DNA of 64,000 nt, taken from Rhizobium bangladeshense. Lineage in GTDB: Bacteria > Pseudomonadota > Alphaproteobacteria > Rhizobiales > Rhizobiaceae. How positions within the stretch are numbered: the stretch's first letter is position 1; the number at the start of each line of letters is the position of its first letter. The notes beneath the pieces are model-generated. The model searched no databases and had not been told where the DNA came from. It worked only from the letters and a program-made list of their open reading frames with translations. A program made the translations under genes and the position numbers. Positions 15,473 through 59,129 of this stretch are shown here, piece after piece. The DNA lies in NCBI RefSeq assembly GCF_017357245.1, contig NZ_CP071615.1, positions 62,001 to 126,000 on the forward strand. The letters run 5' to 3'.

Positions 15473-15981
15473 AGCGCGAATGTTGAAGCGCGCCGCCGCA
15501 GATATTTCAAGCGGCATGACTGTCAATCTGGGCATTGGCCTGCCGACCGAGGTTCTGCAATATGTATCGCCTGGCACCCCTGTCTGCCTGCATTCGGAAA
15601 ACGGCATCGCGGGGGTTGGCCCAGTCTTGTGTCCAGAGAACGCCGACCGCAATTTGATCGATGCGGGTGGCGCCTATGTCTCGATCATACCCGGCACCGC
15701 ATTTTTTAACAGTGCGGTAAGTTTCGCCATCGTCCGATCTGGGCGGCTAGACCTGAGCCTCCTCGGAGCCTTTCAGGTGGCGGCAAACGGCGATCTGGCG
15801 AACTGGAAGATACCCGGCAAATTCTCGCCAGGGATGGGGGGGGCGATAGAACTGGCACAGAAAGCTCGTCGGGTGGGGGTTGTCATGATGCACACCGACA
15901 GCAAGGGCAATCCGAAGATCCTTAGCCAATGCAATTTGCCGCTCACGGCCGCGGGTCGCGTGAACCGGATCTACACCGATA
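15403..15981. repeat. Inverted near-identical tract, arm 1 (CoA-transferase)
   Basis: This tract, covering the end of the alpha and most of the beta CoA-transferase gene, is repeated inverted at 22055-22626. By eye the arms differ only in a G run (eight here, nine in the other arm). Homology continues on one side but drops to the level of ordinary paralogues. Confidence 0.85.
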
Positions 15982-16112
15982 TGGCGGTCTTCGACGTCGC
16001 CGCCGACGGTTTGTACCTTCGCGAGATCGCTGCTGGTACCAGTATTGCCGCACTAGAGGCCGTCACCGGCACGGCCTTCCATGTTCCAAATCAAGATTTG
16101 CCGAGGTTTTAA
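15453..16112 (+). CDS. 3-oxoacid CoA-transferase, beta subunit
   Basis: This 219-residue B subunit carries the catalytic glutamate in the SENG signature at residues 48-51 (Glu 49), which forms the glutamyl-CoA intermediate in this family, and the GAFQV and GKFSPGMGGA loops. I chose the ATG at 15453, preceded by GCCGGAG at 15442-15448 and overlapping the alpha gene by 20 bases, which implies translational coupling. The next gene starts directly after its stop codon. Codons around 15836-15843 include a run of eight G that is intact here but has nine G in the decayed copy at 21918-22577. Confidence 0.93.
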   Translation: MVSSNAKARMLKRAAADISSGMTVNLGIGLPTEVLQYVSPGTPVCLHSENGIAGVGPVLCPENADRNLIDAGGAYVSIIPGTAFFNSAVSFAIVRSGRLDLSLLGAFQVAANGDLANWKIPGKFSPGMGGAIELAQKARRVGVVMMHTDSKGNPKILSQCNLPLTAAGRVNRIYTDMAVFDVAADGLYLREIAAGTSIAALEAVTGTAFHVPNQDLPRF

Positions 16113-17396: not shown

Positions 17397-17398
17397 CC

Positions 17399-18577
17399 AT
17401 GCGAGACGCCGTCATCGTTTCCACCGCCCGTACCCCGATCGGCAAGGCTTATCGCGGCGCTTTCAACGCGACGCAAGGGCCGGTCCTGGCAGCCCATGCC
17501 GTCCGCGCTGCCTTGGCGCGGGCCGGGCTGGAAGGCGGAGAAGTGCAGGATTTCACGCTCGGGTGTGCATTGACCCAGGGCACCAGCGGCATCAATGCTG
17601 CGCGGCACGCCATCTTTGCCGCAGGTCTTCCTGACGATGTGCCCGCCGCTACAATCGACCGGCAATGCGCATCCGGCCTATCCGCCATCGCGACGGCAGC
17701 AAACCAAATCCGGTCCGGCGACAGTGAGGTGGTCTTGGCCGGCGGTGTGGACAGCGTATCGCTGGTGCAGAACTCGAATTGGAACGCCACCAATTATCGT
17801 ATTCCGACAGTTCGGGACGGATACTATATGCCAATGCTCGCAACGGCGGACCTTGTTGCGCGCAAGTATCACGTCAGCCGAGCGGACCAAGATGAATATG
17901 CGCTAGTCAGCCAGAAGCGTACCGCCGCCGCGCAGGAAGCGGGACGATTCGCCGATGAGGTGATTCCAGTTGAAGCTAAGCAGCTTCTGAAAAACCGGGA
18001 GACGGGCGAGGAAAGTATCGCATCCGTGCACGTAAAGCGCGATGAATGCAACCGAGCGGGCACAACTCTAGAAGGCTTGGCCGCGCTCCCAGCCACTATC
18101 GGCGAGGGCTCGACGGTCACTGCTGGCAACTCCTCTCAACTCTCAGACGGCGCCTCCGCCTGCGTCCTGATGTCGGCCTCCCAAGCGGCCTCGCGAAACA
18201 TCACCCCGCTTGGTGTCTTCCGCGGCATGCTGACTGTTGGCTGCGCTCCTGAGGAAATGGGAATTGGGCCCGCATTAGCCATTCCGATCCTGCTCAACCG
18301 ACACGGGCTTTCGGTCGACGACATAGATCTGTTTGAGATCAACGAGGCTTTTGCCGCGCAGCTAGTTTATTGCCGAGACCGGCTGGGACTTGATCCGGCT
18401 AAGCTGAATGTTAATGGCGGCGCCATCTCGATCGGTCATCCTTATGGGATGAGCGGAGCGCGCCTTGTTGGCCATGCGCTGCTGGAAGGGCGTAGGCGCG
18501 GAGCGCGGTATGCCGTCGTTAGCATGTGCATTGGTTGGGGTATGGGAGCCGCGGCGCTGCTTGAGGTCATTTCCTGA
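17399..18577 (+). CDS. Thiolase (acetyl-CoA C-acyltransferase)
   Basis: This 392-residue cytoplasmic thiolase has all three catalytic residues: nucleophile Cys 90 in DRQCASG, His 347 in GHPYG, and Cys 377 in SMCIGWG. In most thiolases the last motif reads CxGxGxG; here it is CIGWGMG, acceptable. It cleaves or forms 3-ketoacyl-CoA. The ATG at 17399 follows the M20 stop by two bases. Together with the CoA-transferase it would convert a 3-oxo acid into acetyl-CoA plus a shortened acyl-CoA. Confidence 0.94.
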   Translation: MRDAVIVSTARTPIGKAYRGAFNATQGPVLAAHAVRAALARAGLEGGEVQDFTLGCALTQGTSGINAARHAIFAAGLPDDVPAATIDRQCASGLSAIATAANQIRSGDSEVVLAGGVDSVSLVQNSNWNATNYRIPTVRDGYYMPMLATADLVARKYHVSRADQDEYALVSQKRTAAAQEAGRFADEVIPVEAKQLLKNRETGEESIASVHVKRDECNRAGTTLEGLAALPATIGEGSTVTAGNSSQLSDGASACVLMSASQAASRNITPLGVFRGMLTVGCAPEEMGIGPALAIPILLNRHGLSVDDIDLFEINEAFAAQLVYCRDRLGLDPAKLNVNGGAISIGHPYGMSGARLVGHALLEGRRRGARYAVVSMCIGWGMGAAALLEVIS

Positions 18578-18626
18578 CCGCTAAACTGGCGTCGACAATC
18601 AGCCGTCGGTGCAGAAAGGGTAGTTT

Positions 18627-19148
18627 ATGTCGACTGTAGTGTCTTTTCGCGTAGCCGAACGTGGGGACAGCCAGGAGATTATGCGGGCACTACGTTTGCT
18701 CGCTGAATCACTTGGCGTTCCCGAGCACTTGAAATGCACCAAAGAAGATATCGAAACCGCTGGGTTCGGTCCCCGGCGCGAGTTTACAGTGATGCTCGCC
18801 GAGGTCGACGACACGATTGCTGGGATGTCTCTCTATTTTCCGATCTTTTCTACCTGGATGGGAAAGGCGGGGCTGTATATCCAAGACCTGTTTGTTCACG
18901 AGGAATTCCGCGATGATCGGGTCGGTGAAAAACTGCTGCGCCACGTCGGCCGGACCGCGTACCATGATGGTTACCGTTATCTTCGCCTGACAGTTGATAA
19001 TGGCAACGAGGCGGGTGCTCGTTTCTATCTTCGGCATGGATTTGAGGCGCTGAACAATGAGACCAGCTACGGTCTTTACGGCACGGCATTTGAGGAGTTT
19101 GCCGCAGTGGAAACTAAACGCCGCTCTTGCGGCCAAACCAACCCTTGA
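18627..19148 (+). CDS. GNAT-family N-acetyltransferase (copy 1)
   Basis: This 173-residue protein has the GNAT fold, with the acetyl-CoA loop around RDDRVGEKLLRHV (about residues 97-109) and the following YRYLRLTVDNGNEAGARFYL and RHGFEALN segments. The layout is like diamine/spermidine acetyltransferases (SSAT type), which fits an amine-bearing substrate. It is 50 bases after the thiolase gene and probably the last gene of the operon. A paralogue lies inverted at 21205-21696. The substrate is unknown. Confidence 0.9.
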   Translation: MSTVVSFRVAERGDSQEIMRALRLLAESLGVPEHLKCTKEDIETAGFGPRREFTVMLAEVDDTIAGMSLYFPIFSTWMGKAGLYIQDLFVHEEFRDDRVGEKLLRHVGRTAYHDGYRYLRLTVDNGNEAGARFYLRHGFEALNNETSYGLYGTAFEEFAAVETKRRSCGQTNP

Positions 19149-19262
19149 TCGTGTGTCATGCGCTCGCAATTCTTCCGTCCGGACGCGCTGTGTTTTAAGC
19201 CCTTAGTAGATCCAGAAGTGCAATTGCATGATCCTGTCCAGCCATAGTGAGACCAACGTGTG

Positions 19263-20570
19263 ATGCTTCAAAGCCCCGGCCACCAGAATTCTTCCCTCGA
19301 CGCCGCCTTGCTCGAAGCACGGGAGCGCTACACTGCAAAGCGCCCGAAGAGTGCGGCGCTGCATCGCGCGGCGGTAGAGGTTCTCCCTGGTGGCAACACC
19401 CGGACCGTGCTTGCCTACGCGCCTTTTCCAACCGCCATGGCGCGGGGCGAGGGCTGCCGTCTTCGGGACGTCGATGACAACATCTACCTGGACTTGTGTG
19501 GAGAATACACCGCTGGCCTTTTTGGCCACAGCGACAGCCGCATCCGTGCGGCTCTACACGGCGCTTTGGCGCGGGGACTGAGCCTAGCCGCTGTGGGGGA
19601 GGCCGAGCAGCGCTTTGCAAGAATTCTCTGCAGCCGCTTTCCGTCCATTGACATGATCCGCTTCACCAACAGTGGCACCGAGGCCAACCTGATCGCGCTC
19701 AGCGTCGCGCAGGTAGTGACAGGGCGCAGCCGCATCATTGCGTTTCGCGGCGGCTATCACGGCAGCCTCCTGTACTACCCCGCCACCGGTTTCAACCCAA
19801 TCAATGCGACGTTCCCGGTGACACTATGTAACTACAACGACATCGACGGCACCGTGGGCGCCATCCGCTCGGCAGCGGGGGAGCTTGCAGCTGTCATAGT
19901 GGAGCCAATGCTTGGTAGCGGGGGCTGCATCGCAGCCGATCCTTTCTTTCTGGCTGCCATCGCCGAGGCTGCACGCGGTGTCGGTGCGATCCTGATTTTT
20001 GACGAGGTAATGACCTCGCGCATGTCGGCAGGCGGTCTGCAGCAGCGTCTCGGTATCTTGCCTGACATGACCACGCTAGGAAAATATATCGGCGGCGGCA
20101 TGAGCTTCGGTGCGTTCGGTGGAAGGCACGACATCATGGACATCTTCGTCTCCAGTGTGCCCCATGCCGGCACATTCAACAACAACGTCATGTCCATGGC
20201 TGCAGGGATCGCCGCAATGGAAGAAGTGTTTACGGCCACAGCGGCCGCCGAGCTGTTTGCGCTAGGGGAGGGCCTACGCGAGCAACTCAACGCGATGTCT
20301 GACAGGGCCGGCGTACCGCTGCAGTTTAGTGGCCTCGGCTCGCTCGCCACGGTCCACTTTCGTCGCAACAAGATCGATCGCCCCTACGCCATCACCTCGA
20401 AGGAGGAGGCTCTCAAAGAGCTGTTCTTCTTCGACATGCTCGACTCGGGGGTCTACATCGCGCGCCGCGGCATGATGGCGCTGAGTTTGCCGACGACGGA
20501 ACAGGACCTTGCACAGTTCACAACTGCCGTCGGCGATTTCCTCGACGCACGGGCGCCGTTACTGCGGTAG
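19263..20570 (+). CDS. Class III PLP aminotransferase (glutamate-1-semialdehyde aminomutase-like)
   Basis: This 435-residue enzyme has the fold-type I class III signature: TNSGTEAN at about 136-143, GGYHGS near 164, the PLP-ring aspartate in IFDEV (Asp 247), and the Schiff-base lysine in TTLGKYIGGG (Lys 274). It resembles glutamate-1-semialdehyde aminomutase but is not the housekeeping HemL; relatives in accessory gene clusters act as transaminases or aminomutases on amino acids. It starts at the ATG at 19263 (a GTG directly before it is also in frame) and lies 114 bases after the GNAT gene. It may supply or interconvert an amino acid for the cluster. Confidence 0.9.
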   Translation: MLQSPGHQNSSLDAALLEARERYTAKRPKSAALHRAAVEVLPGGNTRTVLAYAPFPTAMARGEGCRLRDVDDNIYLDLCGEYTAGLFGHSDSRIRAALHGALARGLSLAAVGEAEQRFARILCSRFPSIDMIRFTNSGTEANLIALSVAQVVTGRSRIIAFRGGYHGSLLYYPATGFNPINATFPVTLCNYNDIDGTVGAIRSAAGELAAVIVEPMLGSGGCIAADPFFLAAIAEAARGVGAILIFDEVMTSRMSAGGLQQRLGILPDMTTLGKYIGGGMSFGAFGGRHDIMDIFVSSVPHAGTFNNNVMSMAAGIAAMEEVFTATAAAELFALGEGLREQLNAMSDRAGVPLQFSGLGSLATVHFRRNKIDRPYAITSKEEALKELFFFDMLDSGVYIARRGMMALSLPTTEQDLAQFTTAVGDFLDARAPLLR

Positions 20571-47220: not shown

Positions 47221-48887
47221 GCCGCAAAGTTAAAGTGTCCTGTTTCTGCAAAGTAAGAATGTCACTCTCCCCGGGTTTTGATGACCTGGGAGATTGCGGA
47301 TGGGACTGATAGCGATGAGCGAGCGTGATGTGCAGCGGATCGAGATTTTGTCGAAGGTGATTGCCGGCCGCATGACGCTGGTGTCGGCGGCACATGTGCT
47401 TGATCTGAGCACACGTCAGGTGCGTCGTCTGCTGGAGCGGATCAAGACTGACGGCGCAGCGTCGATCCGGCACAAGGCGATCGGCCGGCCGTCGAACAAC
47501 CGGATCAGTGATGGTGTGCGCGATTACGCGGTGACGCTGGTTCGCGAAGGCTATGCAGACTTCGGCCCGACGCTGGCGGCCGAGAAGCTTGCCGAGCGAG
47601 ATGGATTGCGTGTGTCGCGCGAGACGTTGCGCAGCTGGATGGTTGATGCCGGGCTGTGGCTGTCGCGCAAGCAGCGCCGAACGTTTCATCAGCCGCGGTT
47701 GCGGCGCGAAGCCTGTGGCGAGCTGGTGCAGATCGACGGCTCCGAGCACCGCTGGTTTGAGGGCCGCGGTGATCCGTGTTCGCTGCTGGTGTTCGTCGAC
47801 GATGCGACCGGCAGATTGATGCAGTTGCGCTTTGTCCGCTCGGAAAGCGCCTTCAGCTATTTCGAGGCATTGGCGCTCTATCTGAAGGCGCATGGTGCTC
47901 CGGTTGCCTTCTATTCCGACAAGCATTCGGTGTTCCGGGTGGCGAAGAAGGACGCCAGAGGCGGCCAGGGCATGACCCAGTTCGGGCGTGCACTCTCGGA
48001 ACTAAATATCGAGATTCTTTGCGCAAATTCGAGTCAGGCCAAAGGCCGTGTCGAGCGGATGAACCGGACGCTGCAGGATCGGTTGGTCAAGGAACTGCGA
48101 CTGGCCGGTATCGACACCATGGAGGCGGGCAACGCGTTTCTGCCTGGCTTCATGGCGGATTACAATGCGCGGTTTGCGATTGCCCCTGCCCGGTGCGATG
48201 ACCTGCATCGGCCAATGAATCTGGCGCCGGATCGATTGCAAGAGATCCTGTGCAAGCGCGAGCAGCGCTATGTGGGATCGCAGCTGACGTTTTCGTTTGA
48301 ACGCAAGCGGATCATGCTGGAGGAGACTGAGGTGACGCGCGGTCTGGCCGGTCGCTATGTTGAGACCTACGCCTATGCCGATGGCCGCCTGGATGTGCGC
48401 TGGAAGGGGCACTCCCTGCCCTACAAGACCTTCGACAAGGACCAGCGGGTGACGCATGCGGCGATTATCGAGAACAAGCGATTGGGGGATGTTCTGGCCT
48501 ATATCAAGGAGCGCCAGGAGCAGCAGTCGAAGCCGGCTGTGAAGACCAACAGCGAGAAGAACGGCTATGTGCGACGTGCTCACGGACCGGGACGGCGGAA
48601 GGATTTCATGAACGATCCGGCGGTCCTTGCGCGGCGCCAGAAGGCACTGTCGCGGCTTGATGCTGCGGAGTGAATGGTCGATTGAAGAGACTCAAAGCTA
48701 AAGCCGAAGAGGTGTGCTTCACCCGCCCCCTCCTTCCCTTGCAACCCGGCCCAGCCGGTCCGGTCGGGGGCTTGCCTCAGTGCAAGTGGAGATGTCGAGT
48801 GTCGCATTTCTAAATGGCTGAAGACGCCCCAAAGTGACATTTCTACTTTGCGCAACAGCGGACATTTCAACCTAGCCGCCACAGTTA
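47221..48887 (+). mobile_element. ISNCY-type insertion sequence (copy 1)
   Basis: The left end has CGCAAAGTTAAAGTGTCC and CAAAGTAAGAATGTCAC; the right end at about 48825-48885 carries the matching inverted motifs (AGTGACATTTCTACTTTGC and GGACATTTCAACC). The single transposase gene fills the element. An IS30 lies directly to the right. Confidence 0.82.
47294..48673 (+). CDS. ISNCY-family transposase (copy 1)
   Basis: This 459-residue transposase starts near the element's left end (MRMGLIAMSERDVQRIEILS; the start may be the inner ATG at 47315). It has an N-terminal helix-turn-helix (AHVLDLSTRQVRRLLERI), a DDE integrase core (GELVQIDGSEHRWF, FYSDKHSVFR, and the KGRVERMNRTLQDRLVKEL glutamate) and a basic C terminus. 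Close relatives occur in many alphaproteobacteria. It is about 90 percent identical to the copy at 50086. Confidence 0.92.
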   Translation: MRMGLIAMSERDVQRIEILSKVIAGRMTLVSAAHVLDLSTRQVRRLLERIKTDGAASIRHKAIGRPSNNRISDGVRDYAVTLVREGYADFGPTLAAEKLAERDGLRVSRETLRSWMVDAGLWLSRKQRRTFHQPRLRREACGELVQIDGSEHRWFEGRGDPCSLLVFVDDATGRLMQLRFVRSESAFSYFEALALYLKAHGAPVAFYSDKHSVFRVAKKDARGGQGMTQFGRALSELNIEILCANSSQAKGRVERMNRTLQDRLVKELRLAGIDTMEAGNAFLPGFMADYNARFAIAPARCDDLHRPMNLAPDRLQEILCKREQRYVGSQLTFSFERKRIMLEETEVTRGLAGRYVETYAYADGRLDVRWKGHSLPYKTFDKDQRVTHAAIIENKRLGDVLAYIKERQEQQSKPAVKTNSEKNGYVRRAHGPGRRKDFMNDPAVLARRQKALSRLDAAE

Positions 48888-48903
48888 TTGTAAGGGGGGT
48901 ACA

Positions 48904-50012
48904 TTCTATTTCCAAGTGCGACATGCTTATAAAAACAATGGCTTCGCCTTGGAGATATATGCATGTCCCTTTGCTATTCGCAGCTCACCCTGCCTGATCG
49001 CAAGCGTCTTTTTCATCTTAGAGAACGCAAGGTTTCCGTCTCGGAGATTGCCCGCCAACTCGGTCGTCATCGTTCGACGATCTATCGCGAGCTTAAACGC
49101 AATACGTTCCAGGATCACGAATTTCCGGAATACAGCGGCTATTACAGCGGTATCGCCAACGACATGAGCAAGGAGCGCCGACGACGGCTGCGCAAACTCA
49201 GACGCCATCCGCATCTGCGCGATCTCGTCATCGACCGGCTGAAGGCGCATTGGTCACCTGAGCAGATCGCTGGCCGGCTTCTCGCCGATGGCGTCAGTCC
49301 TGTGCGCATTTGCCCGGAAACGATTTATCGTTTCATCTATTGCAAGGAAGATTATCCGCTCGGGCTGTATCAGCACCCGCCGGAACGACGGCGCAGGCGT
49401 CGGCGCCGCGGCGCACGCAAACCGCGCGACGGCTTAATCCCGCTCGACTACAGAATCTCCCAACGACCTGATTTTATTGATGATCGATCACAGTTCGGGC
49501 ATTGGGAGGGCGATCTCCTGATCTTCCGGCGTGAACTCGGAGAGACCAACGTCACCTCTCTCGTCGAGCGCAAGAGCCGCTATACGGTGATGATCAAGAA
49601 CCGCAGCCGTCACTCGCGACCGATCATGGACAAGATCATCCATGCCTTCTCACCATTGCCGTCTTTTGCACGCCGAAGCTTCACCTTTGATCGCGGCACG
49701 GAGTTCTCCGCTTTCAGGGCTTTGGAAGATGGGATCGGCGCCAGGAGCTGGTTCTGCGATCCCAATTCGCCTTGGCAGAAAGGCGCTGTCGAGAACACCA
49801 ACAAGCGCATTCGACGCTTCATGCCTGGCGATACGGATCTGTCCAACGTCGCTCAGAAGCAACTTGTCGACCTCGCCCATCACCTGAATTCGCTGCCAAG
49901 AAAGTGCTTGGGCTACAAAACACCGGCCGAGGTCTTCATGGCGCATTTGCGTGAATGCGGCTGATCCCCTACCCTTCAAACGCCCATGTTGCACTTGGTG
50001 TAGATTCTCCAC
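48904..50012 (+). mobile_element. IS30-family insertion sequence
   Basis: Inverted ends TCTATTTCCAAGTGCGACATG (shortened here to its core CCAAGTGCGACATG) at about 48907-48927 and CATGTTGCACTTGG at about 49985-49998 bracket one transposase gene. The element sits exactly between two ISNCY-type copies. Its left end also occurs alone at 13299-13325 and 51637-51662, each time right of an ISNCY end. Confidence 0.82.
48963..49964 (+). CDS. IS30-family transposase
   Basis: This 333-residue transposase has the N-terminal helix-turn-helix (KVSVSEIARQLGRHRSTIYR), the DDE motifs in HWEGDLLIF, TFDRGTEFS and AVENTNKRIRRFMP, and the HLNSLPRKCLGYKTPAEVF tail diagnostic of IS30. Length and motifs are complete, so it may be active. 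Confidence 0.93.
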   Translation: MSLCYSQLTLPDRKRLFHLRERKVSVSEIARQLGRHRSTIYRELKRNTFQDHEFPEYSGYYSGIANDMSKERRRRLRKLRRHPHLRDLVIDRLKAHWSPEQIAGRLLADGVSPVRICPETIYRFIYCKEDYPLGLYQHPPERRRRRRRRGARKPRDGLIPLDYRISQRPDFIDDRSQFGHWEGDLLIFRRELGETNVTSLVERKSRYTVMIKNRSRHSRPIMDKIIHAFSPLPSFARRSFTFDRGTEFSAFRALEDGIGARSWFCDPNSPWQKGAVENTNKRIRRFMPGDTDLSNVAQKQLVDLAHHLNSLPRKCLGYKTPAEVFMAHLRECG

Positions 50013-51636
50013 CGCAAAGTTAAAGTGTCCTGTTTCTGCAAAGTTGGAATGTCACACTCCCCGCGTCTGAACGACGTCTGGGAGATTGCGGATGGGATTG
50101 ATAGCGATGAGCGAGCGCGATCTGCAGCGGATCGAGATTTTGTCGAAAGTCGTCGCCGGCCGCATGACGTTGGTGTCGGCGGCGCATGTGCTTGATCTGA
50201 GCGAGCGCCAGGTGCGTCGGCTGCTGGAGCGGATCCGCACTGGTGGTGCGGCGTCGATCCGGCACAAGGCGATCGGCCGGCCGTCGAACAACCGGATCAG
50301 CGACGGTGTTCGGGATTATGCGGTGACGCTGGTTCGCGAACGCTATGCGGACTTCGGGCCGACGCTAGCGGCCGAGAAGCTTGCCGAGCGCGATGGATTG
50401 CGGGTGTCGCGCGAGACGTTGCGCAGCTGGATGACGGAGGCCGGACTTTGGCTGTCGCGCAAGCAGCGCCGGACGTTTCATCAGCCGCGGCTACGGCGCG
50501 AAGCCTATGGCGAGCTGGTGCAGATCGACGGATCCGAACATCGCTGGTTTGAAGATCGCGGACCGCCGTGCTCGCTCTTGGTGTTTGTCGATGATGCGAC
50601 GGGCAGATTGATGCAGTTGCGCTTTGTACGATCGGAGAGCACGTTCACCTATTTCGACGCACTCGAACTTTACTTGAAGGAGCATGGCGCTCCGATCGCC
50701 TTTTATTCCGACAAGCATACGGTGTTCCGGGTGGCGAAGAAGGACGCCAAGGGTGGCCAGGGCATGACCCAGTTCGGCCGTGCACTAGCGGAACTAAGTA
50801 TCGAGATTCTTTGCGCAAATTCGAGTCAGGCCAAGGGTCGTGTGGAGCGGATGAACCGGACGCTGCAGGATCGGCTGGTCAAGGAATTACGACTGGCTCA
50901 GATCTGCGACATGGAGACGGGCAACGCGTTTTTGCCTGGCTTCATGGACGACTACAATGCCCGGTTTGCGATTGTCCCTGCCCGGTCCGATGACTTGCAC
51001 CGGCCGATGAATCTGGCGCCGGAACGGCTGGGCGAGATTCTGTGCAAACGCGAGCAGCGTTATGTCGGATCGCAGTTGACGGTTTCGTTCGAGCGCAAGC
51101 GGATCATGCTGGAGGAGACCGAGGTGACGCGCGGATTGGCGGGTCGCTATGTCGAGACCTATGCCTATGCGGATGGTCGATTGGATGTGCGGTGGAAGGG
51201 GTATTCCCTGCCCTACAGGACGTTCGACAAGGACCAGCGGGTGACGCATGCGGCGATCACCGAGAACAAGCGGCTCGGCGATGTCCTGGCTTACATCAAG
51301 GAGCGCCAGGAGCAGCAGACGAAGCCGGATGTGAAGACCAACAGCGAGAAGAATGGCTACAAACCGCGGGGCCGCAAGCCGGGTCGAAAGACGGATTTCA
51401 TGAACGATCCGGTGGTGATTGCGCGGCGTGAGAAGGCACTGTTGCGGCTCGACGCTGCAGAGTGAGGCGTCTCAAAGCTAAAGCCGAGAGGTGTTCCTCA
51501 GCCGCCCCCGCTCCTCCCTTGCAGCCCGGCCCAGCCGCTCGGATCGGTGGCTAATCCGAAGCGCAAGTGTCGCGTTTCTAACTGGCTGACAGCGTCGCGC
51601 ATCTAACCAGCTTTGACAGTTATTGTGGGGGGGGTG
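50013..51636 (+). mobile_element. ISNCY-type insertion sequence (copy 2)
   Basis: The left end is of the same type as copy 1 (CGCAAAGTTAAAGTGTCC). The right end (51560-51615, TGTCGCGTTTCTAACTGGC and GTCGCGCATCTAACCAGC) is of a different type, which instead matches the left end of the dead element at 12375. A further IS30-type end follows at 51637-51662. Confidence 0.78.
50086..51465 (+). CDS. ISNCY-family transposase (copy 2)
   Basis: This 459-residue transposase matches copy 1 in length and motifs (GELVQIDGSEHRWFEDRG, FYSDKHTVFRVAKKD, KGRVERMNRTLQDRLVKEL). The C terminus differs slightly (KPRGRKPGRKTDFMNDPVVI). Same orientation as copy 1, so the pair could act as direct repeats. Confidence 0.92.
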   Translation: MRMGLIAMSERDLQRIEILSKVVAGRMTLVSAAHVLDLSERQVRRLLERIRTGGAASIRHKAIGRPSNNRISDGVRDYAVTLVRERYADFGPTLAAEKLAERDGLRVSRETLRSWMTEAGLWLSRKQRRTFHQPRLRREAYGELVQIDGSEHRWFEDRGPPCSLLVFVDDATGRLMQLRFVRSESTFTYFDALELYLKEHGAPIAFYSDKHTVFRVAKKDAKGGQGMTQFGRALAELSIEILCANSSQAKGRVERMNRTLQDRLVKELRLAQICDMETGNAFLPGFMDDYNARFAIVPARSDDLHRPMNLAPERLGEILCKREQRYVGSQLTVSFERKRIMLEETEVTRGLAGRYVETYAYADGRLDVRWKGYSLPYRTFDKDQRVTHAAITENKRLGDVLAYIKERQEQQTKPDVKTNSEKNGYKPRGRKPGRKTDFMNDPVVIARREKALLRLDAAE

Positions 51637-51812: not shown

Positions 51813-52023
51813 TCACTTCGCTGCTTCTTGGTCCGGCGCATAAGCACCGTCGGCATCGTGGTCTTCTCGGCCGGTAAGGGGAGGATTAAACACACATATC
51901 GCGCGAAACTTGGTTTTCGGTCGCAAGGTGTGGCGATCATGTTGGTCAAGCAGATACATATCACCAACGCGGATGGTGTGAACTTCGCCGGTTTCCCGAT
52001 TGGTAAGCTCGCATTCACCCTCA

Positions 52024-52940
52024 GAGTCTATTCAAGAAAGGGGATATCGAGCGAGCCTTCTGGTCATGAGCTTGATCATTGCGGTTTGGATGAAGGCGAG
52101 GCTTGTGGCTGAGAAGCGCTCGAAATCCTTTGCCATTCGGCGGTTTATGCCGAGCCAAGCCAGCGTTCGTTCGACGATCCATCGCTTCGGCAGCACCTGG
52201 AAACCGGCTTGATTGCGTTTGATAATCTCCATCGGTCGCGGGCTTGTCTCTTCGACCGTTGGGCCCTGATAGCCGCCATCGCCGCAGATTTTTTCGATGA
52301 ATGGAAAGCGGTTGGCCAGCTTGTCGAAGACAAGTGCCGCTCCGTCGCGATCCTGAATGCTCGCCGAGTGGACCTCTGCTTTCAGAAGCATGCCCAGGGT
52401 ATCGACCAGAATGTGCCGCTTGCGACCCTTGATCTTTTTGCCCGCGTCATAGCCGATATCAGAACGGGCGTCCGGGCCTGTCTTCACCGACTGACTATCG
52501 ATGATGGCAAATGATGGCTGCTCTTCGCGCCCCTCAAGCTGCCGCGTTCGGCAATAGAGCGCGTCATGAATACGACGCCACGTCCCGTCCCGGCAGAACC
52601 GCTTGAAATAATGATAGACCGTACTCTTCGGTGGAAAATCATGCGGTAGCAATGCCCATTGGCAGCCCGACTGCAGCAGATAAAAAATCGCGTCCATCAC
52701 CGCCCGAAGGGACGTCTTGCGTCTGCGGCCAAGTCGGGGCTGCCTTGGCATGAAGGGGTCGATCAAGCTCCACTCACGGTCAGTCAGATCGCTTGCGTAG
52801 CGCATGCGGCTTCTGTCATGATGACGCCGGGTGAAGGGTGTCCAGGCCATTCGATGTCTCCGTATTTGTCGCAAAATACAAAGAATCTGATTGCCGCCCT
52901 TCACTCAACCCCGCGCCCGGCCGCCATTCTTGAACAGACA
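52024..52940 (-). mobile_element. IS5-family insertion sequence inside the ectC-like gene
   Basis: The ends GTCTATTCAAGAAAGG (left) and the complement of CCATTCTTGAACAGAC (right) are inverted repeats. CTCA occurs on both sides (52020-52023 and 52941-52944), consistent with a short target duplication. Removing the element restores the ectC-like reading frame. Confidence 0.88.
52032..52805 (-). CDS. IS5-family transposase
   Basis: The protein (257 residues from the ATG at 52805, MRYASDLTDREWSLIDPFMP) carries the IS5 DDE motifs: IIDSQSVKT, GDGGYQGP and IVERTLAWLGINRR. The frame is open to 52904, but the upstream part has no family similarity. It looks intact. Confidence 0.9.
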   Translation of the reverse strand: MRYASDLTDREWSLIDPFMPRQPRLGRRRKTSLRAVMDAIFYLLQSGCQWALLPHDFPPKSTVYHYFKRFCRDGTWRRIHDALYCRTRQLEGREEQPSFAIIDSQSVKTGPDARSDIGYDAGKKIKGRKRHILVDTLGMLLKAEVHSASIQDRDGAALVFDKLANRFPFIEKICGDGGYQGPTVEETSPRPMEIIKRNQAGFQVLPKRWIVERTLAWLGINRRMAKDFERFSATSLAFIQTAMIKLMTRRLARYPLS

Positions 52941-53181
52941 CTCAACACACAATACAGCCTCAACATGATGCTTGTACCAGAGATCCGTTACTGTCCCTGG
53001 ATACACCGTCGTCTCGTGCAGGGAAAATCCCGCCCTATCGTCGGCGAGGATCAAACGTTTGCTCCGCCAGGTGCCGAGCGCACCCGCAACGTCCCGTTCG
53101 GTATCGGTGATTCCATCGAGCGAGCGAATAATCATCGGGGTCTATCTCCTGTGTTGGTTTTTCCGATATTGCGACGATTGG

Positions 53182-53451
53182 CTAAGCCGCGGCTGCAGTC
53201 ATTACGAGAAAGTCCGTGTAACCACCGACAGTCTCGAAATCTTTGACATCAAGTTCTTCAGGATCCACGCTGAATCCAAGCATCTCCTCCAGTTCGATGA
53301 GCGTCTCAAGCATGCTCATGGAGTCCAGCTGGAATTTCTCAAATAAAACGATGTTGTCGGTAAGCGGCGGAATTTCTTCCTCAAGGACCGCGTGTAATGC
53401 TTTTCGGAGGGCGTCACGGGCTTCGTCTTTAGAAAGAACTTTCTTAAGCAT
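53182..53451 (-). CDS. Acyl carrier protein
   Basis: This 89-residue protein has the four-helix carrier-protein pattern. The phosphopantetheine serine is in FQLDSMSMLE (Ser 44), followed by LEEMLGFSVDPEELDVKDFETVG. It is unlike the housekeeping AcpP in sequence. Its ATG at 53451 overlaps the end of the adenylating-enzyme remnant by eight bases, so the two were translationally coupled, and the ectC-like gene follows 46 bases on. The set suggests a carrier-bound amino or acyl group that feeds an EctC-type cyclisation, which I know from no described pathway. The gene itself is intact but its partners are broken. Confidence 0.9.
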   Translation of the reverse strand: MLKKVLSKDEARDALRKALHAVLEEEIPPLTDNIVLFEKFQLDSMSMLETLIELEEMLGFSVDPEELDVKDFETVGGYTDFLVMTAAAA

Positions 53452-53625
53452 AGGGTATCTCCACGCTAGTGTTTTGGGGCACCTGCGCCACACCTTCTTC
53501 CAGCAGGCGCATGAGCGCCCTCCTGTCAAACTTGTTGTTTGCAGTTCTGGGTATTTCGGAAATTGGCCAAACCCTCTCTGGAACCTTATACGGCTCAAGT
53601 CGGGTTCTGAGTTGTCAACCGGGCA
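53444..53625 (-). pseudogene. AMP-dependent ligase / adenylation domain, C-terminal remnant
   Basis: The translation RTRLEPYKVPERVWPISEIP then RTANNKFDRRALMRLLEEG is the C-terminal subdomain of an ANL-superfamily enzyme; NNK holds the A10 lysine that takes part in adenylation. About 58 residues remain before a stop and the edge of the IS3 element at 53635. The remaining 400 or more residues are gone; the other side of the IS3 carries an ectA-like gene, so a deletion accompanied the insertion. It would have loaded the neighbouring carrier protein. Confidence 0.82.
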
Positions 53626-53687
53626 GATGCTGACTGAACCGCGCCGGGTTTGCCGGAGGCTCCAACTTCTGAGAAAGTGGAGCCGAT

Positions 53688-54014
53688 ATGAGCAAGACAA
53701 CGAACAAGTTTTCACCGGAAGTCCGCGCCCGAGCCGTGCGGATGGTTTTGGATCACGAAGGCGAGCATTCCTCGCGATGGGCGGCGGTGTCCTCAATCGC
53801 CGCCAAGATCGGCTGCACTGCGCAGACGCTCAATGAGTGGGTGAAGAAGGCCGAAGTGGACAATGGTTCCCGGCCTGGGCTCCCAAGCGACGTCGCCGAG
53901 AGGATGAAGGCGCTGGAGCGAGAGAACCGTGAGCTTCGGCAGGCCAACGAGATTTTGCGCAAGGCGTCAGCATATTTCGCGATGGCGGAGCTCGACCGCC
54001 CATTGAAGCGATGA
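53688..54014 (+). CDS. IS3-family transposase OrfA
   Basis: This 108-residue protein has the OrfA helix-turn-helix ([37 protein letters not shown]) and the leucine-zipper part ([20 protein letters not shown]). It ends with an ATGA overlap with OrfB at 54011. Confidence 0.92.
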
Positions 54015-54916
54015 TCTCGTTCATCGACGAACACCGCGCAGTGTTCGGGGTCGAGCCGATCTGCAGGCTGCTGCCGATTGCCCCATCAACCTACTACGAG
54101 AACGTGGCCAAGCGTGTGGATGTGGATCGTCTATCGATCCGCGCCCGCAGGGATATAAGCCTGAAGATCGAGATACGTCGTGTCTTCGAGCAGAACTACC
54201 GCGTCTATGGCGTTCGGAAGGTCTGGCGGCAGTTGAAGCGAGAAGGCTTCGATGTCGCCCGCTGCACCGTCACTCGGCTTATGAGGTCGATGAGCCTGCA
54301 AGGTATCATTCGGGGAAAGCCGATCCGCACGACGTTCCCCGACAGAACGGCTCCGAGCCCACTGGACCGCGTGAACCGACAGTTCAAGGCTCCTGCGCCC
54401 AACAGGCTGTGGGTTTCAGATTTCACCTATGTCGCTACCTGGCAAGGCTTCGTTTACGTGGCCTTCGTGATCGACGCTTTCGCTCGGCGCATCGTCGGTT
54501 GGCGCGTAAGCCGAACGGCACATGCCGGGTTTGTCCTCGATGCTCTCGAACAGGCACTTCATGATCGGCGTCCCGTTCATGGCGGCGGCCTCGTGCATCA
54601 CTCGGACAGGGGCGTTCAATACGTGTCGATCAGGTATTCGGAGCGGCTGGCGGAGGCAGGGATCGAGCCTTCCGTCGGAAGTGTGGGCGACAGCTACGAC
54701 AATGCGCTCGCCGAAACGATCAACGGTCTCTACAAGGCCGAGGTCATCCATCGGCGCGGACCATGGCGGAGCTTCGAAGCGGTGGAGTTCGCCACACTGG
54801 AATGGGTCGACTGGTTCAACCATCGAAGGCTTCTGGAACCCATCGGAAACATGCCGCCAGCCGAAGCTGAAGAGCAATATTACGCCATGCTAGACGAACC
54901 AGCCATGGCCGCATAA
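54011..54916 (+). CDS. IS3-family transposase OrfB
   Basis: This 301-residue integrase has HTH_21, the DDE motifs ([24 protein letters not shown], and the glutamate in [13 protein letters not shown]) and the [15 protein letters not shown] tail. It is complete and may be active with OrfA. Confidence 0.93.
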
Positions 54917-54955
54917 CTTAAACGCAATAGCCTCCGGCAAACCCGGCGCGGTTCA

Positions 54956-55421
54956 GCGTCTCATCGTGATGTTCTGCGTCCTTGCTCGAGAGAAATTCGG
55001 AGGAATAGAGGAGTTCTTCAGTGAGATGGCCGCCCAATCGCTTGCAAAGGGTCTTCATCACCAATCGGATCGGCTTGTTGTCTTTATCGACAGAGGCCTC
55101 TACAAAACGTGCACCATGTGAGACCTCTCGTTTGACCGCAAATTCAAGCAATTCGAGGCCCAGCGCCGCAATTCCATGGCGAGGTTTTGTGGCTGTCTGC
55201 CATAAGAAGTATGAATCCGGCCTCTCCGGGGAGCGAAACGCCGTGAGAAACGCAATCACTTCATCATCGCGGAGAGCCACTGCAGATTGTCAAGAGAAGT
55301 GTGTGCACCAGAGAGCATACGTGTAGTTGCTATTCTTATCCAGATGAGTAGTGCCTTGAACGAGGCTGGCAATTTCTTTGGCATGCGCGAGCTTGGGACT
55401 TTCGAAACGAACATCGTTCAT
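54956..55421 (-). pseudogene. ectA: Diaminobutyrate acetyltransferase-like gene (ectA family) with an internal stop
   Basis: From the ATG at 55421 the frame reads MNDVRFESPKLAHAKEIASL, then HLDKNSNYTYALWCTHFS and a TGA at 55290-55292 (codon 44). After it the same frame continues QSAVALRDDEVIAFLTAFRS, PERPDSYFLWQTATKP and ETSVDK-like GNAT sequence to HHDETL, where the IS3 begins. The order (NSxY.Y.LxCxHFS, then PERPD.xFxWQ) is that of EctA, which acetylates L-2,4-diaminobutyrate. A single nonsense change plus loss of the last residues inactivates it. It lies between the MFS gene and the carrier-protein genes on the same strand. Confidence 0.8.
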
Positions 55422-55462
55422 GGCTTTAATTCCCAGAGTGAGAGTACGATAGGATGATACGA

Positions 55463-56716
55463 TCAGCTGGTCGCGATCACGTTCCGCGCTTTGTACTTAC
55501 TTGCGAAGACGATACCGGTAGCTATCAGGCAGAGAACACCAGAGGCGTACCAGAGAGGGTTGTAGCTGCCGTGCTCGAGCCATAGGATGCTCCCGTAATA
55601 GGCCATGGCGCCAGCGCCAATCTGATGGAACGCGTTCACCCATCCGAAAACTGCTGGACCGTCGTCATTGTAAACGCGGTTGCAAATGGCAATAACCGGG
55701 GGAACGGTGGCAACATCCATGATGCCAAAAACAATGGCGAAGGTTATAATCTCCGCACCAAAGTCTCCCGTAAGGACGAACGGCAGAGAAAGGAGCGTGA
55801 GTGCCCTGACAGCAAACGCTACTGCCAGGATAATTTGAACACTAACTCGGTCAGTGAGCCATCCAGATATTGTCGTTCCCAATACGTTGAAAACGCCTAC
55901 GAGGAGTAAGACCGAAGAGGCTGCTGTAACAGTCAACCCGCAGATACTGGCGGCAAGAGTAAAGTGGCTCCACATGATGCCGTTGGTCGTGGCGCCGCAA
56001 ATCATAAACAGAGCAGCGAGAACCCAAAAAATCCAGGTCTTTGCGGCGCCCGACAATCCGCTGAACAGAGCCGGGCCGATTGGGCCACAATATCGGGCGT
56101 TGGGGGCTTCAGCATGGCCACGAAGAAGAAATACATTTGCAAGAATTGCCAGTGCCGCAATGCCAGCCGAGCCGATGAGCGGTGCACGCCAGCCAAAAAT
56201 GCTCATGACCTCGGACCAAAACGGAAGGAGAGCAAACTGCCCAAATACGCTTGAGGCAACTAGGCAACCTGAAATTGCTCCTTGCTGGCGTGGAAACCAG
56301 ATGCTGACGATGAGGCTACCATATGCCATCGTCAGGCATCCCGTCCCAATGCCAATGATGATGCCCCATGCAAAATTAAACATAAGCGGATTTGGGACTA
56401 GAGCCATACCGCTTCCAGTGACAAGCATAAGGAGCGCGATGTTTGCCACCTTAGCAATACCGAAGCGACGCATCGCGTAGATCGCAAATGGAGCCGTTAA
56501 CCCATACAGGATCATATTGAGCGCAATTCCCGGCGAAATGGATGATACGCTCCACCCTAGCTGCTTTACGAAATTGGTCGTTAGCAGCCCTGCAAGAGTT
56601 GTATAGGAGCCGGCCGAGACAATGCTGGTAATCCCCGCTATCAATATGCCCAGTTGCCCTCCACAAGTGGAGACATTGTTATCGACAGGTGGATGTGTTG
56701 GGTGAATGCAGGACAT
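55463..56716 (-). CDS. MFS transporter (OFA/monocarboxylate-like)
   Basis: This 417-residue membrane protein has about twelve helices and loops typical of the oxalate/formate antiporter and monocarboxylate group (GIGTGCLTMAYGSLIVSIWFP, then the second-half GWLTDRVS motif). I start at the ATG at 56716; the frame to 56785 crosses into the neighbouring IS3. It is the first gene of the minus-strand ectA/ligase/carrier/ectC-like set and could export the product or import a precursor. It is intact. Confidence 0.88.
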   Translation of the reverse strand: MSCIHPTHPPVDNNVSTCGGQLGILIAGITSIVSAGSYTTLAGLLTTNFVKQLGWSVSSISPGIALNMILYGLTAPFAIYAMRRFGIAKVANIALLMLVTGSGMALVPNPLMFNFAWGIIIGIGTGCLTMAYGSLIVSIWFPRQQGAISGCLVASSVFGQFALLPFWSEVMSIFGWRAPLIGSAGIAALAILANVFLLRGHAEAPNARYCGPIGPALFSGLSGAAKTWIFWVLAALFMICGATTNGIMWSHFTLAASICGLTVTAASSVLLLVGVFNVLGTTISGWLTDRVSVQIILAVAFAVRALTLLSLPFVLTGDFGAEIITFAIVFGIMDVATVPPVIAICNRVYNDDGPAVFGWVNAFHQIGAGAMAYYGSILWLEHGSYNPLWYASGVLCLIATGIVFASKYKARNVIATS

Positions 56717-56815
56717 TGAGGATTGATCCGGGCTCGACGTAGCATACTGTAGTGGCCCCCTAAATCCCCGGACACGATCTCCCACTTGTTAAGTGTTAGG
56801 AGTAATGTGCCCATT

Positions 56816-57208
56816 ATGACCAGTCACATACCTAAGATAGAAGTGCTGTCCGGCCCGGAGCGCCGCCGTCGCTGGTCGACAGCGGAAAAGCTCGCGATAG
56901 TCCAGGAGACCTACGAGCCTGACGTCACGGTCAGCATCGTTGCCCGACGGCATGGCATTCAGCCGAACCAGTTGTTCGCCTGGCGCAAACTAGCGGCGCA
57001 GGGTGCGCTGACGGCGACGGCATCACAGGAAGAGGTCGTCCCGGCATCCGAATACAGGGCACTTCAAAACCAGGTGAAAGAGCTGCAGCGCCTCCTCGGC
57101 AAAAAGACGATGGAAGGCGAAATCCTCAAGGAAGCGCTTGAGATAGCATCAGGGTCAAAAAAACACCTGTTGCGCTCGCTCTCGTTGCCGAAGGACGGTT
57201 CGCGATGA
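56816..57208 (+). CDS. IS3-family transposase OrfA
   Basis: This 130-residue OrfA starts MTSHIPKIEVLSGPERRRRW at 56816 and has the helix-turn-helix EKLAIVQETYEPDVTVSIVA (RRHGIQPNQLFAWRK). A coiled-coil (NQVKELQRLLGKKTMEGEIL) follows. The ATGA overlap with OrfB at 57205 allows coupling. Confidence 0.9.
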   Translation: MTSHIPKIEVLSGPERRRRWSTAEKLAIVQETYEPDVTVSIVARRHGIQPNQLFAWRKLAAQGALTATASQEEVVPASEYRALQNQVKELQRLLGKKTMEGEILKEALEIASGSKKHLLRSLSLPKDGSR

Positions 57209-58035
57209 CGGCGGTGTGCGAAACCCTGGGTGTCGCCCGATCCAACATCGCCGAACGTGTGAAGCAACGCCCTTCAAAATCCCGAGGGCGGCCGCCGCTC
57301 GCCGATCAGGAACTGCTGGATGAGATCAAGACGATCATCGACGACATGCCGACCTACGGATATCGGCGGGTTCACGCGATCCTTTGCCGTAAAGCCCGCA
57401 GCGAAAACCGCACATGGCCAAATGCCAAACGCGTCTACCGGGTGATGAAGGTTCACGGCATGCTTCTTCAGCGCCACACCGGTGCAATTGACACCCGTCG
57501 CCACGATGGCCGCGTCGCCGTCGAGCAATCCAATCTGCGTTGGTGTTCAGACGGCTTCGAAATCGGCTGCGACAACAAGGAGAAGGTCCGCGTTGCCTTC
57601 GCTCTCGACTGCTGTGATCGCGAGGCCATTGCCCATGTCGCGACAACCGAGGGCATTAAGAGCGAGGACGTCCAGGACCTTGTCATCACCGCCGTTGAGA
57701 ACCGCTTCGGTCTCATCAACACCCTTCCAAAGCCAATCGAATGGCTGACTGACAACGGCTCCTGCTTCATCGCAAAGGACACCAGATCGCTGCTCATCGA
57801 TATCGGCATGGAGCCGTGTTCAACGCCCGTTCGCAGCCCTCAGTCCAACGGAATGGCCGAGGCCTTCGTCAAAACCTTTAAGCGCGATTACGTCTCGGTG
57901 AACCCCTTACCGGACGCTATAACCGTCATCGCGCAACTGCCCTCATGGTTCGAACACTACAATACCCTTCACCCGCATAAGGCATTGGGGTATCGCTCGC
58001 CTCGTGAGTTCTTAAACCGTCAAACAGAAACCTGA
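57205..58035 (+). CDS. IS3-family transposase OrfB
   Basis: This 276-residue integrase has the DDE motifs (WCSDGFEIGCDNKEKVRVAF, WLTDNGSCFIA, and the glutamate in NGMAEAFVKTFKRDYV) and the HYNTLHPHKALGYRSPREF tail. It appears intact. Confidence 0.92.
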   Translation: MTAVCETLGVARSNIAERVKQRPSKSRGRPPLADQELLDEIKTIIDDMPTYGYRRVHAILCRKARSENRTWPNAKRVYRVMKVHGMLLQRHTGAIDTRRHDGRVAVEQSNLRWCSDGFEIGCDNKEKVRVAFALDCCDREAIAHVATTEGIKSEDVQDLVITAVENRFGLINTLPKPIEWLTDNGSCFIAKDTRSLLIDIGMEPCSTPVRSPQSNGMAEAFVKTFKRDYVSVNPLPDAITVIAQLPSWFEHYNTLHPHKALGYRSPREFLNRQTET

Positions 58036-58151
58036 TCCTGTCCGGTTTTTAAGGGGCAACTCCACATACTTCGTTCATAAATTCGTTGGCTCCTGAATGC
58101 TATTTGGAGTAGAGCGATTCACAAACGATATTAACTAAAGCGAGGCTAAGC

Positions 58152-59129
58152 GTGCCTAACGTATCGAAAGCTCCGCGCGGCATTCCCCCCTTAAACTGGC
58201 TTCGCGCCTTTGAAACTGTTTCGCGGCATATGAGCTTCAAAAAGGCAGCCGAAGAACTCAACGTGACACCTGCGGCAATCAGCCAGCAGGTGCGCCAACT
58301 CGAAGATTATTTTGAGATAAGGTTGTTCGATCGTAACCCGCGAGCGCTTGCGTTGACGAGAGTTGGAGAACTTGCAGTGCCGTTATTGGCGGCAGGAATG
58401 AACAACATTTCTGGCGCGTGTGATGCAATGCAGAACGCACGGCCCAAAGATTATATTGTGGTTACGGCACCGCCTTCGTTCAGCATGAAATGGCTAGTTC
58501 CTCGACTGGAGGATTTTAGGCAGGCGCACCCGGAAGTCGAAGTGAGAATAGACGCGCGCGATGATTTAGTGGATTTAAAAAAAGGCTCGGCCGATGTAGG
58601 GATCCGTTACGGCACTGGCAAATATTCTGACCTGCAGGTTGAAAAGCTTTTCCAAGACGTTTATTTCCCGGTTTCTAGCGCGAAACTTTTTCAAACGAAC
58701 GGACGAGCGCTTAAGCTGGCTGATCTGAAGCATCATCGTTTGTTGCATGTGGATTGGCCCGCGCTGGCATCAGCTGCTCCCAATTGGCAAATGTGGTTAA
58801 AAGCGGCGAATATCTCGCACCCTGATGCTTTTCAAGGTCATAGGTTTCCAAGCGAGATGATGGCATTAGATGCCGCTATCTCTGGATTCGGTATCGCCTT
58901 GGTTAGCAGCAAAATTGCTGCAATTGACATAGAGGCCGGTCGGTTGGTTAGGCTATTCTCAGATCAGGCCCCTATCCAAACGGGGTTTCAATACTATTTC
59001 GTTCGACTAAATGACACAAAGCCCCGTAAGGAAGTGGCAACGTTTTGCAATTGGCTGCGTGCAAATAGCGCCGCCGAAAATCGATTTCCTTTAAACCGTA
59101 ACATTAGCCGCACTTTGCCTCACGAATAA
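58152..59129 (+). CDS. LysR-family transcriptional regulator (GcvA-like)
   Basis: This 325-residue LysR protein starts with GTG or the downstream reading MPNVSKAPRGIPPLNWLRAF. The winged helix (SFKKAAEELNVTPAAISQQV) and the binding domain beginning ARPKDYIVVTAPPSFSMKWL are of the GcvA/AmpR branch. It is transcribed toward the MFS_3 gene 332 bases downstream and might control it; no operator was found by eye. Base composition is a little more AT-rich than its neighbours, perhaps a sign of separate origin. Confidence 0.92.
   Translation: MPNVSKAPRGIPPLNWLRAFETVSRHMSFKKAAEELNVTPAAISQQVRQLEDYFEIRLFDRNPRALALTRVGELAVPLLAAGMNNISGACDAMQNARPKDYIVVTAPPSFSMKWLVPRLEDFRQAHPEVEVRIDARDDLVDLKKGSADVGIRYGTGKYSDLQVEKLFQDVYFPVSSAKLFQTNGRALKLADLKHHRLLHVDWPALASAAPNWQMWLKAANISHPDAFQGHRFPSEMMALDAAISGFGIALVSSKIAAIDIEAGRLVRLFSDQAPIQTGFQYYFVRLNDTKPRKEVATFCNWLRANSAAENRFPLNRNISRTLPHE

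Follow-up and report, generated by a model that had tools for sequence, protein, structure and literature searches.

A wrecked gene cluster in Rhizobium bangladeshense and its intact relatives: a candidate route to ectoine analogues built from a carrier-bound acyl group

The stretch of DNA analysed here, referred to as the window, comprises 64,000 nucleotides from Rhizobium bangladeshense and corresponds to bases 62001-126000 of a contig of 369,739 bases (NZ_CP071615.1). This contig is probably a symbiosis plasmid, since it also carries frames that read, by eye, as nifHDK. On the minus strand of the window, from 56785 to 51816, lie the remains of a biosynthetic gene cluster: a major facilitator superfamily (MFS) transporter, an EctA-like GNAT protein with a stop codon, an IS3 element, the end of an ANL adenylating enzyme, an acyl carrier protein (ACP) and an EctC interrupted by an IS5 element (Table 1). 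An initial annotation had listed these parts, and profile matches together with tblastn comparison to an intact cluster of Rhizobium gallicum bear out every one of them, as well as the claim that the cluster was inactivated by an IS5, an IS3 with deletion and a stop codon. The annotation did not extend to the divergent LysR gene or to a third insertion sequence before the MFS gene.

Table 1. Features of the wrecked cluster, with positions numbered from the first base of the window.
Feature	Position	Strand	Evidence
LysR-type regulator	58152..59129	+	complete open frame, divergent from cluster; 72.8% to R. gallicum cluster LysR, 1e-154
Insertion sequence between LysR and MFS	56757..58056, ends approximate	+	two transposase frames; terminal repeats 15/20 alike
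MFS transporter, putative exporter of product	55463..56785	-	PF07690 (MFS_1) 7.3e-28; 73.5% to R. gallicum cluster MFS
EctA-like GNAT, broken	54957..55421	-	TIGR02406 on both pieces; 77% to R. gallicum residues 1-158
IS3-family element at deletion	53635..54956	+	100% to copy in R. binae; no target duplication seen
VinN-like adenylating (ANL) enzyme, last ~56 residues	53447..53614	-	73% to R. gallicum ANL residues 454-510, 1.7e-18
Stand-alone ACP	53182..53451	-	PF00550 6.1e-6; start overlaps ANL frame end
EctC-like ectoine synthase, N-terminal half	52942..53135	-	PF06339 1.7e-21, profile 1-63; frame continues into IS to 52905
IS5-family element inside EctC	52024..52941 (about)	-	PF13340, PF01609; TCA on both sides
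EctC-like ectoine synthase, C-terminal half	51816..52023	-	PF06339 2.6e-23, profile 63-126; searched from 52031

The EctA-like frame has its start codon at 55421, meets an in-frame TGA at 55290-55292 and is cut near its end by the IS3, into which the open frame continues to 54918; similarity reaches 54948. Both pieces match TIGR02406 (55418-55293 at 1.5e-7, 55289-54921 at 1.2e-16), in each case under the cut-off. By tblastn against R. gallicum, the IS3 stands in place of three things: the last residues of EctA, the entire decarboxylase/ammonia-lyase gene and the ANL up to residue ~453. A deletion beside this element fits with its lack of a visible target duplication. With Pfam alone, the remaining ANL tail gives a weak match to PF13193 (E 0.0066, under the cut-off). 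The ACP has an LDSMSM phosphopantetheine site in alignment and matches the R. gallicum ACP at 78% (81% over residues 1-83 by tblastn), while the EctC halves match R. gallicum EctC at 81% and 85% by tblastn. These two broken halves are the only EctC matches in the genome, and the pathway is dead in this organism. The transposase frames of the insertion sequence between LysR and MFS lie at 56786-57208 and 57205-58035. Downstream of the wreck the window is dense with insertion sequences (47294-51465), where very similar long transposase frames at 47294-48673 and 50086-51465 flank a transposase-like frame at 48963-49964.

Intact relatives were found in 17 places, each with six functions together (EctA, EctC, ANL, ACP, a decarboxylase and an ammonia-lyase-family domain), spread over alphaproteobacteria (n=5) and Streptomyces (n=12), that is, over two phyla and in several gene orders. 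The R. gallicum plasmid cluster (L005), reached with the ACP as query, consists of a divergent LysR gene, MFS, EctA, a 574-residue pyridoxal phosphate (PLP) enzyme annotated as alanine racemase, ANL, ACP and EctC. A genome scan gave the clusters of Tateyamaria (L007), Pseudovibrio exalbescens (L008) and Ferruginivarius sediminum (L009), and a search of the family of Tateyamaria with the hotdog domain, the C-terminal domain of the PLP enzyme, matched two of 394 genomes, the Tateyamaria genome included, and added L098. Four Streptomyces plasmids carry the cluster (L006, L040, L041, L044); the plasmid clusters were found with ACP or ANL as query. Among 392 Streptomyces genomes, 20 had a match to the hotdog domain. 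All 12 strong matches (E 3.5e-37 or better) adjoin decarboxylase, ANL and ACP, and eight of these also EctA and EctC (type A); among the eight weak matches, neither EctA nor EctC occurred in the six neighbourhoods examined. In total, 19 of 22 ammonia-lyase places were examined, those left out being two with internal stops and the genome (G918) already represented by L007. One type A cluster from a frame-shifted assembly (L091) is counted among the 17 and omitted from the EctA, EctC, ANL and hotdog alignments.

The recurrence of this gene set in 17 clusters rules out a chance juxtaposition of the genes in the window; since these relatives keep the set together in several gene orders, the ectoine-type enzymes, adenylating enzyme and carrier protein do form a real, if wrecked, cluster, as the initial annotation had supposed. 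Homologues of the ACP and ANL are thus not confined to unrelated contexts, though related ANL/ACP pairs were also found elsewhere. The search for neighbouring ectC, ACP and ANL genes which the annotation had suggested supplied the missing adenylation enzyme, and also the decarboxylase and ammonia-lyase-like domain, which are decisive for the chemistry and are invisible from the window. Decarboxylase homologues are present in all 17 clusters (part by annotation), and the Asp-Ser site of the ACP is invariant in the 12 aligned. LysR is divergent from the first cluster gene in four of the five alphaproteobacteria, that gene being MFS in L005 and L008 and EctA in L007 and L098. EctB, which the initial annotation had named as a feature of ordinary ectoine clusters, is not foreign to this type: it adjoins the cluster in 12 of the 17 relatives and was absent from the examined stretch of the other five. 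An EctB gene also lies on the same replicon as the wreck, at bases 15631-16860 of the contig, ~97 kb away (651.7 bits against a cut-off of 552.2). There, at 15598-20151 (L034:11598-16151), EctB is followed by genes that appear by eye to be GNAT-like and ATP-grasp-like, near nifHDK, and this part of the symbiosis plasmid may hold a separate cluster that uses diaminobutyrate. Five Streptomyces clusters (L006, L041, L080, L081 and L091) form a subtype with a P450, a ferredoxin and a reductase.

The cluster is uncommon. An ACP search of 148 genomes in the genus gave two weak matches besides the source genome; in the family (394 genomes, 1e-6) there was one such weak match, and in a sample of the class (385 genomes, 1e-12) none. 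No relative was found in the viral contigs searched. Five of ten plasmid records with a hotdog-domain relative represent this cluster type, and the two of the remaining records that were read both have a CoA-ligase-type neighbour. A Sinorhizobium meliloti relative (P0010) is known at the protein level alone. Several copies are on plasmids, and transfer of the cluster between actinobacteria and alphaproteobacteria seems to have taken place.

The closest solved structure to the R. gallicum ANL is VinN (9e-105). In VinN the residues D230, F231, S299, K330 and R331 are discussed for recognition of beta-amino acids (PMC11253843), and the substrate of the related FlvN is aspartate (PMC11284099). In all 16 cluster ANLs compared, D230, K330 and R331 are kept, F231 is replaced by Tyr and S299 by Thr; the ANL of the window has lost its adenylation domain and falls outside this comparison. 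The same residues occur in the ANLs of four Streptomyces gene sets that have no EctA or EctC (type B, L087-L090), while the Lonsdalea ANL (L012) differs. As none of the five annotated neighbourhoods has a gene labelled glutamate mutase (their gene table being incomplete), aspartate is a likelier substrate than 3-methylaspartate. The closest solved relative of the PLP enzyme of R. gallicum is BtrK, a decarboxylase of ACP-bound glutamate (3e-82). Other relatives of the ANL, in Mesorhizobium (L042), Paenibacillus (L043) and an NRPS-type Streptomyces cluster (L039), were set aside because no EctA or EctC is annotated with them; two of these (L039 and L043) have the cluster specificity residues. 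On the Mesorhizobium plasmid, asnB, ACP, the VinN-related ANL and nadE stand in a row (L042:3681-8483). Sinorhizobium plasmids often carry ANL matches, at 35-38% identity (75 of 125 records with a match). A petrobactin-type assignment was also rejected: the best NCBIfam match of the ACP is AsbD, at 37.1 bits against a cut-off of 100, and no asb gene is annotated in L005.

The C-terminal domain of the R. gallicum PLP enzyme is a hotdog domain whose best NCBIfam family is 3-aminobutyryl-CoA ammonia lyase (NF052388), matched at 3.6e-30 in R. gallicum and at 1.6e-40 in Streptomyces L006, in which it is fused to a phosphopantetheinyl transferase (PPTase). It is fused to the decarboxylase in four of the five alphaproteobacteria and to the PPTase in some Streptomyces, and is free in others. 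The ammonia-lyase motifs are mostly retained in the Streptomyces copies, and a conserved Glu is common to the solved Act2, the fusobacterial and Acetoanaerobium proteins and all 15 aligned Streptomyces cassette copies. Identity to the Fusobacterium protein is 45-50% for the type A Streptomyces copies, compared with 47% for Act2 and 35-38% for the alphaproteobacterial copies. The catalytic residues of Act and Kal were not found in the open literature searched, and a structure model of the domain was poor (mean pLDDT 43.6) and was not used. A search of the R. bangladeshense genome with this domain was empty, which is uninformative for lack of a positive in the same genome.

The cluster EctA is closest in structure to EctA, with a GNAT fold, and the R. 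gallicum protein reaches 105.4 bits against an equivalog cut-off of 120.6. The 17 cluster EctAs, the window fragment included, form one clade (100/99); a Sinorhizobium GNAT (gnat_L133) sits on a very long branch in this tree and was given no weight. The GNAT P-loop, which binds CoA, is absent from all 17 cluster EctAs and present in all 16 ordinary EctAs; for L040, L044 and L083 this region was read from the alignment. The window EctA, in which the P-loop is likewise missing, has RHG. The LDxNSxYxY residues are common to cluster and ordinary EctAs, and their retention together with the adjoining EctB in most clusters points to free diaminobutyrate as the acceptor.

EctC of R. gallicum scores 185.3 bits against a cut-off of 128. 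Measured against the residues that are described as binding iron and substrate or product in EctC of Paenibacillus lautus (PMC6344544), 12 of the 16 aligned cluster EctCs keep the iron ligands E57, Y84 and H92. Cluster EctCs outside the P450 subtype have the same named residues as 12 ordinary Streptomyces EctCs (Asn-38 being His in both), while in the four aligned P450-subtype proteins (L006, L041, L080 and L081) His replaces Tyr-84 and Ser stands at the Asn-38 position. Since Tyr-84 is an iron ligand, the final step may differ in the P450 subtype. Two positions ahead of Cys-104, the 12 ordinary EctCs have Cys and the 16 cluster EctCs have Phe, Tyr or Ala; this position should face the same side of the strand, where it would line the acyl pocket. 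Trp-21 lies two residues later in the cluster proteins, a shift that is reported for some orphan EctCs (PMC6344544) and is no marker of the cluster, because ordinary Streptomyces EctCs show it as well. The alphaproteobacterial EctCs nest within those of Streptomyces (fork 95/92), suggesting that EctC was transferred from actinobacteria. The R. gallicum plasmid that has the cluster also has a second EctC, immediately preceding a type I polyketide synthase (PKS) gene (L132:4438-4827). On a Sinorhizobium mexicanum plasmid, a purD-annotated gene, EctC and GNAT stand in a row (L133:2501-4908) with a type I PKS on the other side; this is another ectoine-type cluster with no product assigned.

A role apart from ordinary ectoine is indicated by the eight type A Streptomyces genomes found by genome search, each of which carries a separate ordinary ectABC elsewhere. 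The genes that would supply the acyl donor also occur without EctA and EctC: the four type B Streptomyces (L087-L090) have decarboxylase, PPTase, hotdog domain, ANL and ACP with no EctA or EctC within the 19 kb examined, and in the two of these tested (L089 and L090) a ketoacyl-ACP synthase III (KAS III) adjoins the set. This pairing of one five-gene set with two different acyl-consuming enzymes supports its reading as a donor cassette. No PKS or nonribosomal peptide synthetase (NRPS) is among the annotated features of five annotated neighbourhoods, and no open frame longer than 1040 residues occurs in the 17 cluster stretches, although the genes of 12 unannotated stretches are only partly identified.

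The cluster, its wreckage and its intact relatives are certain. The reactions, the regulation and the product proposed for it are predictions from protein families, gene context, specificity residues and the loss of the CoA motif. As a whole, the best explanation, in which we have moderate confidence, is that the intact cluster uses an ACP-bound acyl group to make an ectoine analogue. The VinN-like ANL would adenylate the beta-carboxyl of L-aspartate and load the ACP, and the BtrK/VinO-like PLP enzyme would decarboxylate the product of loading to beta-alanyl-ACP, from which the hotdog domain would probably remove ammonia to give acryloyl-ACP. The EctA-like GNAT, with the ACP rather than acetyl-CoA as donor, would then move the C3 acyl group to the 4-amino group of L-2,4-diaminobutyrate supplied by EctB, and EctC would close the ring by loss of water, producing a 2-substituted tetrahydropyrimidine carboxylate, a reactive cyclic amidine. 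The substituent would be vinyl if the deamination works, and otherwise aminoethyl. The MFS transporter would export the product, and LysR would control the genes in most of the alphaproteobacteria. An ACP-bound C3 acyl donor from aspartate, a diaminobutyrate acceptor and ring closure by EctC are each likely. More tentatively, and with rather less conviction than we have in the pathway as a whole, we propose an undescribed class of 'acryl-ectoines', in which EctA and EctC use acryloyl-ACP in place of acetyl-CoA to give a 2-vinyl cyclic amidine, with the donor genes acting as a modular cassette that in Streptomyces is also coupled to KAS III. A new cyclic amidine, which the initial annotation had raised as a possible product, would still be the most likely one; its suggestion that a carrier-tethered amino acid is acetylated or cyclised gives way to the likelier view that the carrier-bound unit derives from aspartate and serves as acyl donor.

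Several observations weigh against this proposal, and those concerning the hotdog domain lend themselves to a different account. Its scores (104.8 and 138.2 bits) are below the curated NCBIfam ammonia-lyase cut-off of 160, all five alphaproteobacterial copies have Gly in alignment where the others have the conserved Glu, and in the R. gallicum copy the DAHY motif is also without its Asp; these two changes make deamination doubtful in the alphaproteobacterial lineage. If the beta-alanyl group were not deaminated, EctC would give a 2-(2-aminoethyl) ectoine analogue and the hotdog domain would edit or release the chain. The low scores and the missing Glu favour this account, which we nevertheless consider unlikely, given that plain editing requires no ammonia-lyase relative, that the domain is fused to two different partners or free, and that the type A Streptomyces copies are about as similar to the Fusobacterium protein as Act2 is. 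The presence of the domain is by construction in nine of the 17 clusters (the eight Streptomyces genomes and L098), which were found with the hotdog query; it is also present, however, in clusters found by ACP or ANL alone (L005, L006, L040 and L041). An acryloyl-diaminobutyrate formed by the pathway we favour might instead close to a seven-membered ring by internal Michael addition, as chemical reasoning allows for an acryloyl amide beside a free alpha-amine. We regard such an outcome as very improbable, because in 12 of the 16 cluster EctCs the iron ligands are kept together with most of the substrate contacts that form the amidine (residues as named in PMC6344544).

The EctC tree, for its part, does not split cluster from ordinary EctCs; with this, and with the differences confined mainly to one Cys-adjacent position and the P450 subtype, EctC alone shows no new substrate. 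Two alphaproteobacterial genomes (G918 and G1614) also have no other EctC. It could be argued from the latter, and from the retained EctC iron ligands and the frequent presence of EctB, that the product is the ordinary ectoine osmolyte and that the ANL, ACP and decarboxylase genes are unrelated neighbours. This is highly unlikely, as the genes are linked across phyla in different orders, the cluster EctAs have lost the CoA motif, and a separate ectABC is present in the eight Streptomyces genomes; on these grounds an ordinary ectoine cluster was ruled out. Scarcely more probable is a scheme close to that of the initial annotation, in which a carrier-bound amino acid is N-acylated by EctA and cyclised by EctC on the ACP. 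The co-conservation of ACP, GNAT and EctC would suit it, but the adjoining EctB and the LDxNSxYxY residues point to a free acceptor, and the VinN/BtrK pair would yield beta-alanyl-ACP, which has one amino group and is unable to form the ring alone.

The proposed ACP-dependent pathway shares with the ectoine pathway (EctA, EctB and EctC) an EctA-like protein, EctC, usually EctB, a likely diaminobutyrate acceptor and ring closure by EctC. Unlike it, the cluster adds ANL, ACP, PLP decarboxylase and an ammonia-lyase-like domain, has an EctA without the CoA P-loop, and coexists with ordinary ectABC in the Streptomyces genomes checked. The VinN-like ANL with its aspartate-type specificity residues, the free-standing ACP and the BtrK/VinO-like decarboxylase are shared with the beta-aminoacyl starter modules VinN/VinL/VinO of vicenistatin, FlvN of fluvirucin and BolO/BolC/BolN of bolagladin. 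Such modules differ in that the cluster has no PKS or NRPS that we could find, adds a domain of the ammonia-lyase family, and apparently passes the acyl group to a GNAT. With the beta-alanyl-CoA and 3-aminobutyryl-CoA ammonia lyases (Act and Kal), the cluster domain shares the hotdog family and, for the most part in Streptomyces, the DAHYxG, VDGA and LFGD motifs; unlike these enzymes, it is often fused to a decarboxylase or PPTase, presumably acts on an ACP-bound substrate, and in alphaproteobacteria has Gly for Glu.

By title and the start of the abstract, no paper on such a cluster was found in the open literature, most subscription papers lying outside the search. The cluster thus seems undescribed in the literature searched, and its newness is not certain. 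According to a 2018 review, 145 of 582 EctC proteins are solitary, and their properties and function were called unresolved (PMC5924519). Some of the clusters described here resemble this situation in having EctC without an adjacent ordinary ectAB pair, but in contrast to solitary EctC, the cluster EctC has an explicit pathway context. The proposal can be tested without the broken copy, since intact relatives are present on plasmids and in Streptomyces. If it is true, acryloyl-ACP would be made enzymatically from aspartate, the products would form a new family of small cyclic amidines, and the cluster EctA would use a carrier-protein acyl donor. A 2-vinyl cyclic amidine would be an electrophile and could act as an antimetabolite or warhead. 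The cluster would give EctC outside the ordinary ectABC a specific, testable job.

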